Source: Anaeromyces robustus (lineage: Eukaryota > Neocallimastigomycota > Neocallimastigomycetes > Neocallimastigales > Neocallimastigaceae). Taken from it: DNA of 25,000 nucleotides. A model generated the notes under the pieces. It had not been told where the DNA came from, did not search any database, and saw nothing but the letters and a program-made list of their open reading frames with translations. Location of the stretch: contig MCFG01000001.1 in NCBI GenBank assembly GCA_002104895.1, forward strand, positions 1 to 25,000, read 5' to 3'. Shown piece by piece: positions 1,287-23,428 of the stretch. Every line of letters begins with the position of its first letter. Within the stretch, counting starts at the first letter, position 1. Made by a program: the position numbers and the translations under genes.

Positions 1287-1295
1287 GTATAAAAG
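1287..1295. repeat. Left 9-bp target site duplication of MITE copy 1
   Basis: GTATAAAAG, identical to 2421-2429 and in the same orientation. Confidence 0.6.
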
Positions 1296-2420
1296 GAATG
1301 TGTTGCATTTCGCAATGTTGCATTTTGCAATGTTGCATTTCGCAATATGATATGGGGCGCATATTAAATTTTTGCAATGAGGCGCATAAAAAACAAATAA
1401 AAAAATGAAAAATTTTTTAACACAAATTATGAAAGCCACGTTATGAAATAAAATAAAATAGAATTTAAAAAAATTAAATAAATAAATAAAAAATATATAT
1501 ATAAATAAATGAATAGAAAATAAACAAATAAATAAATAAATATTTCTTTTCTTATTAATTACTTACAAAAAAAAAATAAAGTAAAAAAATTAAAAAAAAA
1601 AAAGCTTATTATAAAATTAAATATATTTATATAATTTTTTTGATAAATGAATAATAATAAATAAAATAAAAGATAATAAATAATATAACAGTATTATATA
1701 TGTATTTTTATTAAAAAGACGATAACAAATAATAAATAAAAAAAATAATATAAATTTTAGAATAAAGAAAAGAAACAAATAAATAAATAAATATTTTTTT
1801 ATTAATTACTTATTTACAAAAAAAAAATATAAAAATAAAAATTCATTATAAAATTAAATATTTTTATAAAATTATTTTGATTTGAAATATTAAAAAAAAA
1901 AATTCAATATTATTAAAATATTAAATAAAAAATATAATTATAAAAAAATATTCAAAAAATATTCAATATTATTAAATTATTAAATAAAAAAAATATTCAA
2001 AAAATATTCAATATTAATTAAATAAAAAATAATGAAGAAATATTCAATATTATTAAATTATTAAATAAAAAAAATATTGAAGAAATATTCAATATCATTA
2101 AATAAAAAAAAATAATGAAGAAATATTCAATATCATTAAATAAAAAAAATAAATAAAATATTATTAAAATACTAAAAAAAATTCAATATTAAAAAAATAT
2201 TTAATATTATTAAATCATTAAATAAAAATATTATTAACTAAAAAAAAATTATTAAATAAATAATTCTTTATATTATTTTTTTATTTATTTAATTATTTAT
2301 ACAATTATGCGCCCCATTGCGAAATGCAACATTGCGAATTGCAACATTGCGAAATGCAACCTACAAATCTTTGTCATGCGCCCCATTGCGAAATGCAACA
2401 TTGCGAAATGCAACTCTCCC
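1296..2420. mobile_element. Non-autonomous DNA transposon (MITE-like), copy 1, 9-bp target duplication
   Basis: The two ends carry inverted copies of a block built on GTTGCATTTCGCAAT. The left end has three 15-bp units at 1302-1346. The right end has five units in the opposite orientation at 2316-2360 and 2385-2414. GGGGCGCAT lies next to the units on both sides. The 9-mer GTATAAAAG occurs directly outside each end (1287-1295 and 2421-2429), as expected for a target site duplication. At each end exactly nine bases separate this duplication from GCATTTCG, and the same spacing is found in copy 2. The interior is A+T-rich and non-coding, so the element must depend on a transposase encoded elsewhere. 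A 9-bp duplication and GGG/GA termini suggest the Mutator superfamily; this is inference. Confidence 0.7.
1890..2230. repeat. Degenerate tandem repeats inside MITE copy 1
   Basis: Repeated blocks of ATATTCAATATTATTAAA followed by TTAAATAAAAAA, about 30-45 bp apart, with AATATTGAAGAA variants. They lie wholly inside the element. They may reflect slippage expansion of the element interior, because copy 2 also carries internal tandem repeats, of a different sequence. Confidence 0.6.
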
Positions 2421-2429
2421 GTATAAAAG
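2421..2429. repeat. Right 9-bp target site duplication of MITE copy 1
   Basis: GTATAAAAG directly after the terminal CTCCC of the element; matches 1287-1295. Confidence 0.6.
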
Positions 2430-12738: not shown

Positions 12739-15700
12739 ATGAATTCTTCAAACTCTACTAATCATCAGTTATTGCGTCGTGGGTTACGATGTCATGGTTA
12801 TCTTGAACAGGAATTTGTTCTTCTTTTCATTCATGACTTACAAACTTGGACTATTAGTAGATTGTTGGATTTTCTTAGTAAACATATATCTAATATCAAC
12901 AACATCATTCATGGCATATCCAAACATTTCATTCCAAACGTAGAGAATTACTTTATAATCAGAGTTAACTATGAAGACCCTAATACCCATCTTAAACTCA
13001 TTAAATTGATAACCCAAAAACTACCTGTATCCAAGATTAAATGGTGTATTACCAATAAAATTCGTAGAGCTAAACTAGTCAACCCTCGTATTCAAAGAAT
13101 TGCTAATAATGTTCTTTCACCTCTCAATACCGAGTTTTATAAACATTTAAATCGTAGCTCACCATTCTTTAACCTTTGTGTTAATTGGAACATAAATGGC
13201 TGGAACAGTGAAAAACGAGATGGCCTCTTATATTTCAATCATATTTTCAAACCGATATGTATCTGCCTCCAAGAAGTTGGTAACAGTAAATATCTTCAAG
13301 ATCACAACGTAAAATTCCCCTTTCTTAACAATTATAAATCTTTACTCAGAAGAGCTGATCCATTAATCCCTCACATGGGAGGCCTCTGTATATGTGTTCA
13401 TTCATCTTGCTCCTTTTACTCGGATCCCTTTGAATACCAGTATATTATTTCTGTCAATATTGCATCCTTTTGGAGTTCTACTTGTTCAATTGGTAATGTT
13501 TATGTACCAGTGGCTGCCCAAAAACTTCATAGGGATAAAGCTATTTTAGAAATTAAAAAATGGTTAAATTCGCGTAAAAAAGATAAACCAGCCATCCTTG
13601 TTGGAGACTTTAATATGAAGAAAAATCAACTTTCTTCTATTATTTCCAATCTCTCTCAACATTGGACTATTATGGACATGGTTGGTCCTCAATATACAAG
13701 AGTTTCTGGACTTCATCGATCATGCATTGACTTTGCTATTATCAATGATACTTTGTTTGAACATATTAATAAAATTTCAGCTTGCAATTCTTTCCTTAAC
13801 ATCTCTGATCATCTTCCTATTCTAATTTCCTGTAACAAGAAGACTTCAGATGATTTCACTTCCCCTCCCCCGTCTAAAACTTTCAAATGGTCAAGAGAAG
13901 TATGTAAATCTAATGATAAAAAAATCGCTCTTCACAACTCCTTTTCTATTTTAGCCGAGGAATTTAATTCTAATAATCTTTCCACTGACGAGATGCTATC
14001 AAAATTTGTGCAAACTTCTAATAAAGTAGGAGATAGTATCAAGGCTCGTATTCCATCTAACCTTCAGGGTTCCTCATTTCACTGCCCTCACTATATCAAG
14101 AAGCTCTCTCACGAAAAGCATATCATGTATACTAAAATCAAAAATTTTTCCATCAACCACGATGCTTCAAATATCTCCGAATTTCTTAAACTATGTGACT
14201 CCTATAATAAAATGTGTGCAAATATTAAATCAATCAAAAAGAACATTAGAAAGAATCTCTTTCTGAACTCTGTTAAATCTGTTTGTGATGATTTTGTAAA
14301 CAAAAACATTAGGAAAGGTTGGCAAGGCTTACATAAAATAGCCAAACCATCTTTTTCTACCTCTCCCCCCCTTGATGTCATCAAAGATAGCAATGGTAGC
14401 CTTCTTTTTTCAAAGGAGGATAAGCTTCGTCGCTTTGCTGAACACTATGAACTCTTAGCTTCTGATGTTACTGGTCATAGTCTTAACAAAGAATTTTGGG
14501 AAAATAAATTTGGACCTCCTCCTCCAAACTCGTCTGAATGGAATATCAATGGTCCTATTACTATTCCTGAAATTTACGAAACTGTTTCTTCCTTGAAAAA
14601 TAATAAAGCTCCAGGTCCTGATGGTATTCCTCCTGAATTTTTCAAAGCTTTCTTTTGTGAATATTCGTCCAATAATAATCAACCTAACAATCAGACAAAC
14701 CCCTCCAACCCCGTTATTCCTGATTCTATTAGATGCCTTGAATTATTATTTAATAGAATTTGGGATGGTGATTTCCCGTCTGAATGGAATTCTGCATCGA
14801 TCATTTCTATTCCTAAAAAAGGAGACCTTTCTGATTGTAACAACTATAGAGGAATTTCTCTGATTAACGTCAGTATAAAGATCATTACAAAGATTATCAC
14901 TTACAGAATTACTAATTATGCACTTAAACATAATTTTATCCGTCCAGAACAGTTTGGTTTCCGTTATAAAGAAGAATGCATCAGTCTTTACATATCAATC
15001 CGTGAAATATGTCAAAGAAGAGCTTTTCTTAATCAATTTACTTACCTTGCTTTTCTTGATTTGAAAAAAGCCTACGATTCTGTCCCTATTTACAATATTA
15101 TAACAAAATTAAACAATCTTGGTATACGTGGTAAATGCCTCAATTTTATTACTAACCTTTACCTTACCTCGAAAGCTCGTGTCTCACTGAATAATCAACT
15201 TTCAAATGAATTCCCTATAAACCGTGGTGTTCGCCAAGGCTGCCCTTTATCCCCAATTTTATTCAATTTATTCATTAATGATATTTTGAATAATTGTTCC
15301 AACTATGGAGTTTCATGTGGTAGTTCAATCTGTTGTGGTGGTCTCTTTGCTGATGACATTGTTCTCATTGCTCCTACCAAGAGTAAACTCAGAGCACTTT
15401 TATCTCGTGTACACGATTGGGCCAAAACCAACGAAATGACCTTTGGTATCAACAAATGTGCTACAATGGTTATTAAACCACTTAAGCTCTCTCTTCCTCA
15501 TAATTATTCTGACCCGACCTTCTTTCTAGGTATCAATAAAATTCCTAAAACATCTTCCTATAAATATCTTGGTATCCCTTTTGACAATTCTCTTTCCCTT
15601 AAACCTATCATTTCTAATCTTAATTCAAAACTTAACCTGACTATAAATTCATTCTCTCGTTTTCTCCTTAACCGCAACATCCCATTGGTTCTTAAACGAA

Positions 15701-15984
15701 GAATTTTTTCTTCCCATATTATCGGTATCTTAAATTACTATTCCCCCCTTTTAGGTTCAAATAAGACTAAAACCAAAAAAGCCCAATCTATATTTAATAG
15801 AGAATTATTTTGGAGTCTTGGACATAAAATCTATCATAAAATCTATCAACATCAACCCTTAACACATGTACCTATTCCATTTCTCGCGAATTTTGGTTCA
15901 TTCCCTTCTCAGCTATTTGTGCTATTGCTCAAATTCGTTGTTTTGATAAATGGGGAAAATCTTCTTGTATTATTAAAGAACTAA
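12739..15984 (+). CDS. LINE ORF: endonuclease and reverse transcriptase (main segment)
   Basis: 1081 residues in this frame. After an N-terminal extension of about 145 residues without a recognised domain comes an apurinic-type endonuclease (about 145-367). Its motifs are NWNINGW, LQEV, VGDFN, CIDFAI and SDHLPI. The reverse transcriptase follows (about 610-900), with APGPDGIP, YRGISLI, EQFGFR, FLDLKKAYDS, RGVRQGCPLSP and the catalytic FADD near 870-873. All of these look intact. The last 35 or so residues of this frame are out of register: the conserved continuation (SAICAIAQIRCFDKW) is found in another frame from about 15882, so one base appears to be missing near 15870-15885. The protein would nick target DNA and copy the element RNA at the nick. 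As it stands the product lacks the C-terminal zinc finger. Confidence 0.9.
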   Translation: MNSSNSTNHQLLRRGLRCHGYLEQEFVLLFIHDLQTWTISRLLDFLSKHISNINNIIHGISKHFIPNVENYFIIRVNYEDPNTHLKLIKLITQKLPVSKIKWCITNKIRRAKLVNPRIQRIANNVLSPLNTEFYKHLNRSSPFFNLCVNWNINGWNSEKRDGLLYFNHIFKPICICLQEVGNSKYLQDHNVKFPFLNNYKSLLRRADPLIPHMGGLCICVHSSCSFYSDPFEYQYIISVNIASFWSSTCSIGNVYVPVAAQKLHRDKAILEIKKWLNSRKKDKPAILVGDFNMKKNQLSSIISNLSQHWTIMDMVGPQYTRVSGLHRSCIDFAIINDTLFEHINKISACNSFLNISDHLPILISCNKKTSDDFTSPPPSKTFKWSREVCKSNDKKIALHNSFSILAEEFNSNNLSTDEMLSKFVQTSNKVGDSIKARIPSNLQGSSFHCPHYIKKLSHEKHIMYTKIKNFSINHDASNISEFLKLCDSYNKMCANIKSIKKNIRKNLFLNSVKSVCDDFVNKNIRKGWQGLHKIAKPSFSTSPPLDVIKDSNGSLLFSKEDKLRRFAEHYELLASDVTGHSLNKEFWENKFGPPPPNSSEWNINGPITIPEIYETVSSLKNNKAPGPDGIPPEFFKAFFCEYSSNNNQPNNQTNPSNPVIPDSIRCLELLFNRIWDGDFPSEWNSASIISIPKKGDLSDCNNYRGISLINVSIKIITKIITYRITNYALKHNFIRPEQFGFRYKEECISLYISIREICQRRAFLNQFTYLAFLDLKKAYDSVPIYNIITKLNNLGIRGKCLNFITNLYLTSKARVSLNNQLSNEFPINRGVRQGCPLSPILFNLFINDILNNCSNYGVSCGSSICCGGLFADDIVLIAPTKSKLRALLSRVHDWAKTNEMTFGINKCATMVIKPLKLSLPHNYSDPTFFLGINKIPKTSSYKYLGIPFDNSLSLKPIISNLNSKLNLTINSFSRFLLNRNIPLVLKRRIFSSHIIGILNYYSPLLGSNKTKTKKAQSIFNRELFWSLGHKIYHKIYQHQPLTHVPIPFLANFGSFPSQLFVLLLKFVVLINGENLLVLLKN

Positions 15985-21911: not shown

Positions 21912-21920
21912 TTAGAATAT
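21912..21920. repeat. Left 9-bp target site duplication of MITE copy 2
   Basis: TTAGAATAT, identical to 22485-22493 and in the same orientation. Confidence 0.6.
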
Positions 21921-22484
21921 CTGAGTGTAGCATTTCGGCAATGTACATGAAATTTTTTGCATTGACAGGTCCTTTACGCCACATTTCATATTTTAAATTT
22001 ATATAAATATTTTTTGACGCCACATTTATATAAAATTTTTTTAAGAGAGTTTATATACTAGTACTTGTATATTAAAACATTTCTTATTTATTTCATAATT
22101 TAAAGAATTATAAATATAAATTTTAAATTTCACTTAATATTTTATTTATTTCATAATTTAAAGAATTATAAATATAAATTTTAAATTTCACTTAATATTT
22201 TTTTATTTCATAATTTAAAGAATTATAAATATAAATTTTAAATTTCACATAATATTTTATTTATTTCATAAGTTAAATAAAAAAAAAAAAGAAATATTAA
22301 TAAAAAGAAGATACCACTAATAAATTGGTTTCAATAAATCAATAATAAATAAAATATTGATTTTAATAATATAATAAATTTTTTATTTATTTATTTTATA
22401 AGCCACAATATAATACATTTAAATAATACGTTATTTTAATGCGCGATACATTTACGAAATACATTGCCGAAATGCACACTTCCC
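21921..22484. mobile_element. Non-autonomous DNA transposon (MITE-like), copy 2, 9-bp target duplication
   Basis: A perfect 16-bp inverted repeat, GCATTTCGGCAATGTA, lies at 21930-21945 and, inverted, at 22460-22475. Directly outside the ends is the 9-bp direct repeat TTAGAATAT (21912-21920 and 22485-22493). At both ends exactly nine bases separate this repeat from GCATTTCG, as in copy 1. The right end is TCCC in both copies. The interior is 564 bp in all, non-coding, with a 58-bp tandem repeat. The element was probably moved by a transposase acting in trans. An apparent minus-strand frame across the left end (21829-22023) has no features of a gene. Confidence 0.75.
22085..22275. repeat. 58-bp tandem repeat inside MITE copy 2, about 3.3 units
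   Basis: Units start TTTCATAATTTAAAGAATT and end with AAATTTCACTTAATATTTTA. The TTTCATAA landmarks are at 22091, 22149 and 22206, with a partial fourth copy near 22265. Units are almost identical. Confidence 0.9.
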
Positions 22485-22493
22485 TTAGAATAT
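22485..22493. repeat. Right 9-bp target site duplication of MITE copy 2
   Basis: TTAGAATAT directly after the terminal TCCC; matches 21912-21920. Confidence 0.6.
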
Positions 22494-22510
22494 ATTTCAC
22501 ATATTCTAAC

Positions 22511-23428
<918 letters not shown>

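Follow-up and report, generated by a model that had tools for sequence, protein, structure and literature searches.

A family of short Mutator-like elements that almost certainly derive by internal deletion from FLYWCH-MULE transposons with stacked tandem-repeat ends

The window analysed here (the whole stretch of 25,000 nucleotides, on contig C1 of the assembly, GC content 18.7%) holds polysaccharide deacetylase and chitin-binding genes, an open reading frame resembling that of non-LTR retrotransposons at 12739-15984 (reverse transcriptase, PF00078, and endonuclease-reverse transcriptase, PF14529, just below cut-off) and two short elements bordered by exact direct repeats (Table 1). The first of these had been described, in a sequence-only reading of the window, as a putative Mutator-like MITE with a 9-bp target duplication. 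The repeat GTATAAAAG was found directly outside both of its ends, exact to the base, and the terminal sequences given in that reading were equally accurate: read inward, they are GAATGTGTT-GCATTTCG on the left and GGGAGAGTT-GCATTTCG on the right. No open reading frame of 150 aa or more is present inside the element. The low GC content and the gene content of the window fit an anaerobic fungus, the host group that the reading had in mind.

Table 1. Features of the two elements in the window, with the basis of each assignment.
Feature	Position	Strand	Basis
Left target-site duplication GTATAAAAG	1287..1295	.	repeat and sibling-copy comparison
Family-1 non-autonomous MULE derivative, 1125 bp	1296..2420	+	copy comparison
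Left end cap GAATGT	1296..1301	+	identical in sibling copies
Three tandem 15-bp units GTTGCATTTCGCAAT, the middle one with one mismatch	1302..1346	+	pattern search
5' arm common to the full-length element, where it stops about 20 nt short of the transposase ATG; right border approximate	1296..1887	+	alignment to L067/L068
3' arm, the part of the full-length element after the transposase stop; left border approximate	1888..2420	+	alignment to parent
Inner block of three 15-bp units, the middle one with one mismatch	2316..2360	-	pattern search
Spacer module CTACAAATCTTTGTC plus ATGCGCCCC	2361..2384	-	sequence and comparison of elements
Outer block of two 15-bp units	2385..2414	-	pattern search
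Right end cap, GGGAGA read inward	2415..2420	-	sibling copies and right-end pattern
Right target-site duplication GTATAAAAG	2421..2429	.	repeat and sibling-copy comparison
Duplication TTAGAATAT of the second element	21912..21920	.	exact repeat
Family-2 non-autonomous element, 564 bp	21921..22484	.	copies and MULE-bearing relatives L072, L073
Second copy of TTAGAATAT	22485..22493	.	exact repeat

A homology search of the genome assembly (70.2 Mb, 769 contigs) was performed with positions 1287-2429 as query. From 5474 first-look candidates 40 were scored, and in all 40 the match was about 690 bases long or more. For the 39 scored places that lie outside the window, 38 stretches were fetched; with the window copy added, both ends could be paired in 38 elements, and L010, L044 and L046, whose ends were unpaired, lie outside this set. 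The many copies with different flanks that the sequence-only reading had proposed to look for were thus recovered: they end at identical bases and are bordered by varied 8-9 bp sequences. An exact duplication, of varied sequence, was seen in 28 of the 38 elements, being 9 bp long in 20 and 8 bp long in 8. When the left flank of one element was paired with the right flank of another, a direct repeat of at least 8 bp was obtained in 6 of 1406 combinations, and sliding the right end yielded a direct repeat in 16 of 14085. Of the ten copies with no exact 8-9 bp repeat, two show one mismatch in nine; the other eight may have recombined or be misassembled.

Nearest-neighbour identity among the 38 copies was 96.9-100%, which suggests a recent spread of this family, named family 1. 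In two stretches, L025 (C408) and L028 (C619), the element and its near flanks are identical, and these may represent one insertion present on two contigs, as haplotigs or through segmental duplication. Across the genome the right-end pattern, with at most one mismatch, occurs at 116 places and the left-end pattern at 194, the reversed controls giving 0 in both cases; the end pattern of family 3 (see below) occurs at 60. Since one mismatch in the left-end pattern admits family-3 ends, the right ends were used to estimate copy number: the genome contains about a hundred copies of the shortened transposon.

The inverted blocks claimed for both ends are present, and are built of stacked 15-bp units. 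With up to 2 mismatches allowed, the window contains 8 occurrences of the 15-mer GTTGCATTTCGCAAT, always within 1302-1346 and 2316-2414, against a chance expectation of 0.02 from shuffles. The spacer CTACAAATCTTTGTC was found near the right end in 24 of 42 two-ended elements, full-length ones among them, and in the same 42 the number of units was counted: the left outermost block has one unit in 10, two in 25 and three in 7, and the right outermost block one in 7, two in 20, three in 13 and four in 2. The two arms of element 1296-2420 match each other in inverted orientation over about 55-62 bp at 85%. Three fetched loci, L010, L044 and L058, have stacks of 15-bp units that differ in sequence from this one. 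Those in L010 and L058 resemble family-3 ends; the stack in L044 (minus strand, about position 689) consists of four units and is a further end type, from which the genome may contain more families of such elements.

The sequence-only reading had also proposed a search for a MULE transposase gene with the same termini, and full-length parents with identical ends were indeed found. A MULE-domain search of the genome gave 36 places, 35 of them above cut-off and none inside element 1296-2420; comparison of these places with those of the end motifs located parents on C141 and C277. Both L067 (3114 bp, duplication ATATTTTT) and L068 (3447 bp including a foreign insert, duplication ATAAATTAG) have ends as in the window element, and in L067 the FLYWCH domain (PF04500, E 5e-9) lies on ORF1 and the MULE domain (PF10551, E 5e-7) on ORF2. 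Eight well-preserved family-1 transposase genes were fetched, seven with the left end and six with both; L079 has the left end only, and no end was found in the stretch of L075, which stops at a contig end. The six two-ended parents are 2686-3447 bp long, and no two have the same duplication; its length is 8 bp in three of them and 9 bp in the other three.

Local alignment to the parent gave a score of 852 for the 5' arm of the window element, compared with 83-117 for six control stretches of the window, and of 524 for the 3' arm, compared with 86-148 for six control stretches. The deletion point is approximate, the sequence there consisting of AT-rich repeats and the parent having an internal duplication in its 5' region where the best 5'-arm alignment stops. 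The window element aligns with the two parental arms but does not contain the gene, and is hence an internal-deletion derivative. MITEs are short (usually under about 600-800 bp), non-coding and high in copy number. The right end of the window element occurs 116 times genome-wide, and no open reading frame of at least 150 aa lies inside it; at 1125 bp, however, the term internal-deletion derivative suits it better than that of a classical MITE, a name that the 564-bp element of family 2 fits better.

One empty site was identified. The derivative in L019 interrupts a repeat and has CTCTGGTTC on either side, and L068 contains the same repeat uninterrupted, with a single CTCTGGTTC. The site is paralogous and inside a repeat, and does not come from a related strain, where the sequence-only reading would have had it sought. 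This repeat (L068, about 515-1030, and the flanks in L019) has a 3' A-run; one copy of it interrupts the L068 parent and another hosts the L019 derivative. It contains what we take to be a tRNA-like B-box motif and is possibly a SINE; no tRNA genes were detected in L068 and L019 by ARAGORN.

The transposase of family 1 is split over two frames: the first is 271 aa long (269 counted from the ATG) and the second, which overlaps it, 237 aa, and both are open in all eight preserved copies. A single frameshift at a run of eight A residues (A8) is common to the eight genes (L067:968-2400 and those on C3, C209, C277, C324, C388, C749 and C754); the pattern used to find the site allowed a gap of 4-16 bases, and the A8 run is identical in each of its eight matches. 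Neither C569, a ninth and more decayed copy, nor C224, a partial one, matched the pattern, and both are outside this comparison. In the sister gene on C491, which is 94% identical, the region is read in one frame, and the putative catalytic aspartate and the 3' part are lost; the relatives on C662, C625 and C114 also read it in one frame. The frameshift is therefore derived and, as six frameshifted copies have different duplications, it predates at least six insertions. The eight genes show 12 differences, all singletons, of which 11 are nonsynonymous and 1 is synonymous, and in these differences no sign of selection after insertion is apparent. An intact enzyme of family 1 was not found, all eight preserved genes being frameshifted.

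An intact FLYWCH-MULE protein of 474 aa is present in a third family, located on C114 (L080/L081), with ends GGGAGAAGTGCATTTCGG and GCACCACATTC and duplication AATACTTTT. Families 1 and 3 have both end caps in common. Relative to these caps the gene is oppositely oriented in the two, its start being next to GAATGT in family 1 (L067) and next to GGGAGA in family 3 (L080/L081). In L081 the family-3 element appears, as judged by eye, to split an open protein-like coding stretch upstream.

The source of the enzyme that moved family 1 can be explained in several ways. The frameshifted gene may be functional, with slippage of the ribosome or RNA polymerase at an in-phase A AAA AAA producing a full-length transposase, as in many bacterial insertion sequences. 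The same A8 run in all eight pattern matches is consistent with this, as are the overlapping frames, open in all eight copies, and the six different duplications, by which the frameshifted form has spread. However, the shift is derived, the C491, C662, C625 and C114 genes using one frame; the RNA structure downstream of the A8 run is not unusual (z -1.06, 30 of 200 shuffles folding as well); the 11 nonsynonymous singletons against 1 synonymous carry no selection signal after insertion; and in two of its three possible phases an A8 run would by chance contain a slippery heptamer in phase. We consider functional slippage unlikely, and slightly less likely still the further proposal that it is a built-in expression control, by which a eukaryotic MULE would use two overlapping frames like bacterial insertion sequences do. 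No report of frameshifting in MULEs was found by title or start of abstract among the open-licence papers listed.

Alternatively, the eight frameshifted parents may have been moved by an intact family-1 copy that has since been lost or is absent from the assembly. It is ordinary among DNA transposons that one source spreads damaged copies passively, the assembly is in 769 contigs, and the parent copy L075 runs off a contig end; yet such a source is only postulated, and we regard it as possible but doubtful. Among the 93 ORF1 matches, those with an identity of at least 84% are the eight frameshifted genes, other copies that are broken, or fragments. The enzyme could also be supplied by family 3, through the intact C114 transposase and the same caps. 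The outermost family-3 unit at the GAATGT end is one base off the family-1 unit, and family-1 ORF1 is 71% identical to the C114 protein over residues 2-243; the other family-3 units, however, are about three bases off, and cross-mobilisation at such a distance need not work. The C114 protein is a candidate source, and its role is a serious possibility, short of a probable one.

The second element of the window had been taken for an independent copy of the first. It is flanked by a different 9-bp repeat, as stated, but belongs to a different, related family. Its assignment to family 1 was rejected because it differs from that family both at the ends and inside, and because there are MULE relatives that have family-2 ends (L072 and L073). 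Family 2 comprises 40 scored copies, including the window element, with 94-100% identity. At 20 fetched loci of these 40, the duplication of the main element was 9 bp long in 16, 8 bp in 2, longer in 1, where it falls in a microsatellite, and missing in 1. In both L072 and L073 the transposase-gene relative beside the family-2 ends is broken; in L072 one side bears a family-2 end and the other a decayed one, with GTTTCATTA directly outside both. At C42:31671-33208 a family-2 copy (31775-32327) is, by its coordinates, nested in a family-1 element. A long AAT microsatellite (about 22509-22760) lies just right of the family-2 element in the window. At least three families of this kind are present in this one genome.

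From these results, element 1296-2420 is almost certainly a non-autonomous internal-deletion derivative of a MULE cut-and-paste transposon with a FLYWCH transposase (Phantom-like domain plan) and stacked tandem-repeat ends. The membership of the Mutator superfamily claimed earlier is supported by the 8-9 bp duplications and by the MULE-bearing parents with the same ends. MULEs make duplications of 8-11 bp without fixed sequence, as found at 8-9 bp in family 1, and the MULE (DDE) domain occurs in a partner with the same ends. The N-terminal FLYWCH and MULE domains of the Phantom type were detected above cut-off in one protein in L080, L070 and L071 (PF04500 and PF10551), and in L067 they are split over two frames. 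The alignment of the relatives contains what we take to be the D, D, C-x-W-H and NNxSE motifs.

Chance could in principle account for the repeat pair and duplications in DNA so rich in AT, the low GC of the window raising the number of chance matches, and other superfamilies, namely hAT, P and Merlin, also have 8-9 bp duplications. The rate of exact duplications (28/38 against 6/1406 with swapped flanks) and the slid-end control argue against chance, and the MULE and FLYWCH domains in full-length elements with these ends, together with the motifs of their relatives, against another superfamily; we consider both explanations exceedingly improbable. A classification as foldback element was also tried. 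The ends do consist of short tandem repeats in variable number (1-3 units on the left and 1-4 on the right in the 42 elements), but the long arms that fold back are lacking, and the candidate was rejected. No solved structure matched by sequence at E up to 1. Searches for relatives in viral contigs (8 stretches) and prokaryote contigs (51) gave peptide-pattern matches only, of which 0 were confirmed by tblastn.

For the non-autonomous MULE derivative, a mechanism can be proposed whereby a FLYWCH-MULE transposase, produced from another place in the genome, would bind the stacked 15-bp units at both ends and cut at the end caps. Insertion with a 9-bp, sometimes 8-bp, stagger followed by fill-in would generate the flanking repeats. 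The derivative would in this way be mobilised in trans, and its activity may be recent or present.

The terminal inverted repeats of MULEs are typically longer than 100 bp in the excerpt of PMC5225508 used here, and the table rows covered in PMC6446971 list ends from 18 to 613 bp among MULE groups; compared with the >100-bp norm, family 1 has a shorter inverted match, supplemented by tandem modules. The closest likeness in the parts of the literature consulted is perhaps best described feature by feature. Tm1 of Meloidogyne (Mutator/Foldback, Phantom-type), as presented in sections of PMC3169594, has a FLYWCH and MULE transposase (496 aa), composite ends in which a motif of about 14 bp (here 15 bp) is present in 1-9 units, two different short end motifs, generally one per end (A2 being CCTACCC), duplications of 8-10 bp, mostly 9 bp (45/53), and MITE-like derivatives. 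It differs in host kingdom and in unit sequence, has the additional motifs B and D in the same sections, and is set apart by the frameshift that the eight preserved genes of family 1 have in common.

Muta1 of Aedes aegypti and Phantom group 20 also have, in the portions of PMC5225508 and PMC6446971 covered, duplications of 8 or 9 bp, short subterminal tandem repeats and more than 300 derivatives of variable repeat number, but Muta1 differs in its active transposase and longer TIR (PMC5225508, same portion). The fungal MULEs of group 35 (Hop/Mutyl) are likewise Mutator-like, with duplications of 9-10 bp in Mutyl; unlike the elements described here, they have CCHC, C2H2 or SWIM fingers instead of FLYWCH, and ends of 22-220 bp (PMC6446971, rows covered). 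Foldback elements, FARE of Arabidopsis among them, resemble family 1 in their tandem-repeat ends of variable number (PMC3169594, in part) and differ in that the arms of the window element match over about 55-62 bp only; the foldback label, according to the same part of that paper, denotes structure and not descent.

The kind of transposon is already known, and the families described here are new to it. The group 20 (Phantom) hosts in the rows of PMC6446971 covered are animals and an ichnovirus, with no fungi, and the main text of that paper contains no word beginning with 'neocallim'. Among open-licence papers on DNA transposons of Neocallimastigomycetes or Mutator MITEs of anaerobic fungi, none on these elements was found by title. 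The present families add FLYWCH-MULE elements whose composite ends resemble those of Tm1, from a host that is probably a fungus and lies outside the Phantom hosts in those rows, and parent and derivative elements can be paired in one genome. Protocols for gene insertion and deletion were reported in 2018 to be unavailable for anaerobic fungi (PMC5796279, in the excerpt used). If a member of these families were active, and should the host be an anaerobic fungus, it might serve as an insertion tool for this host group.
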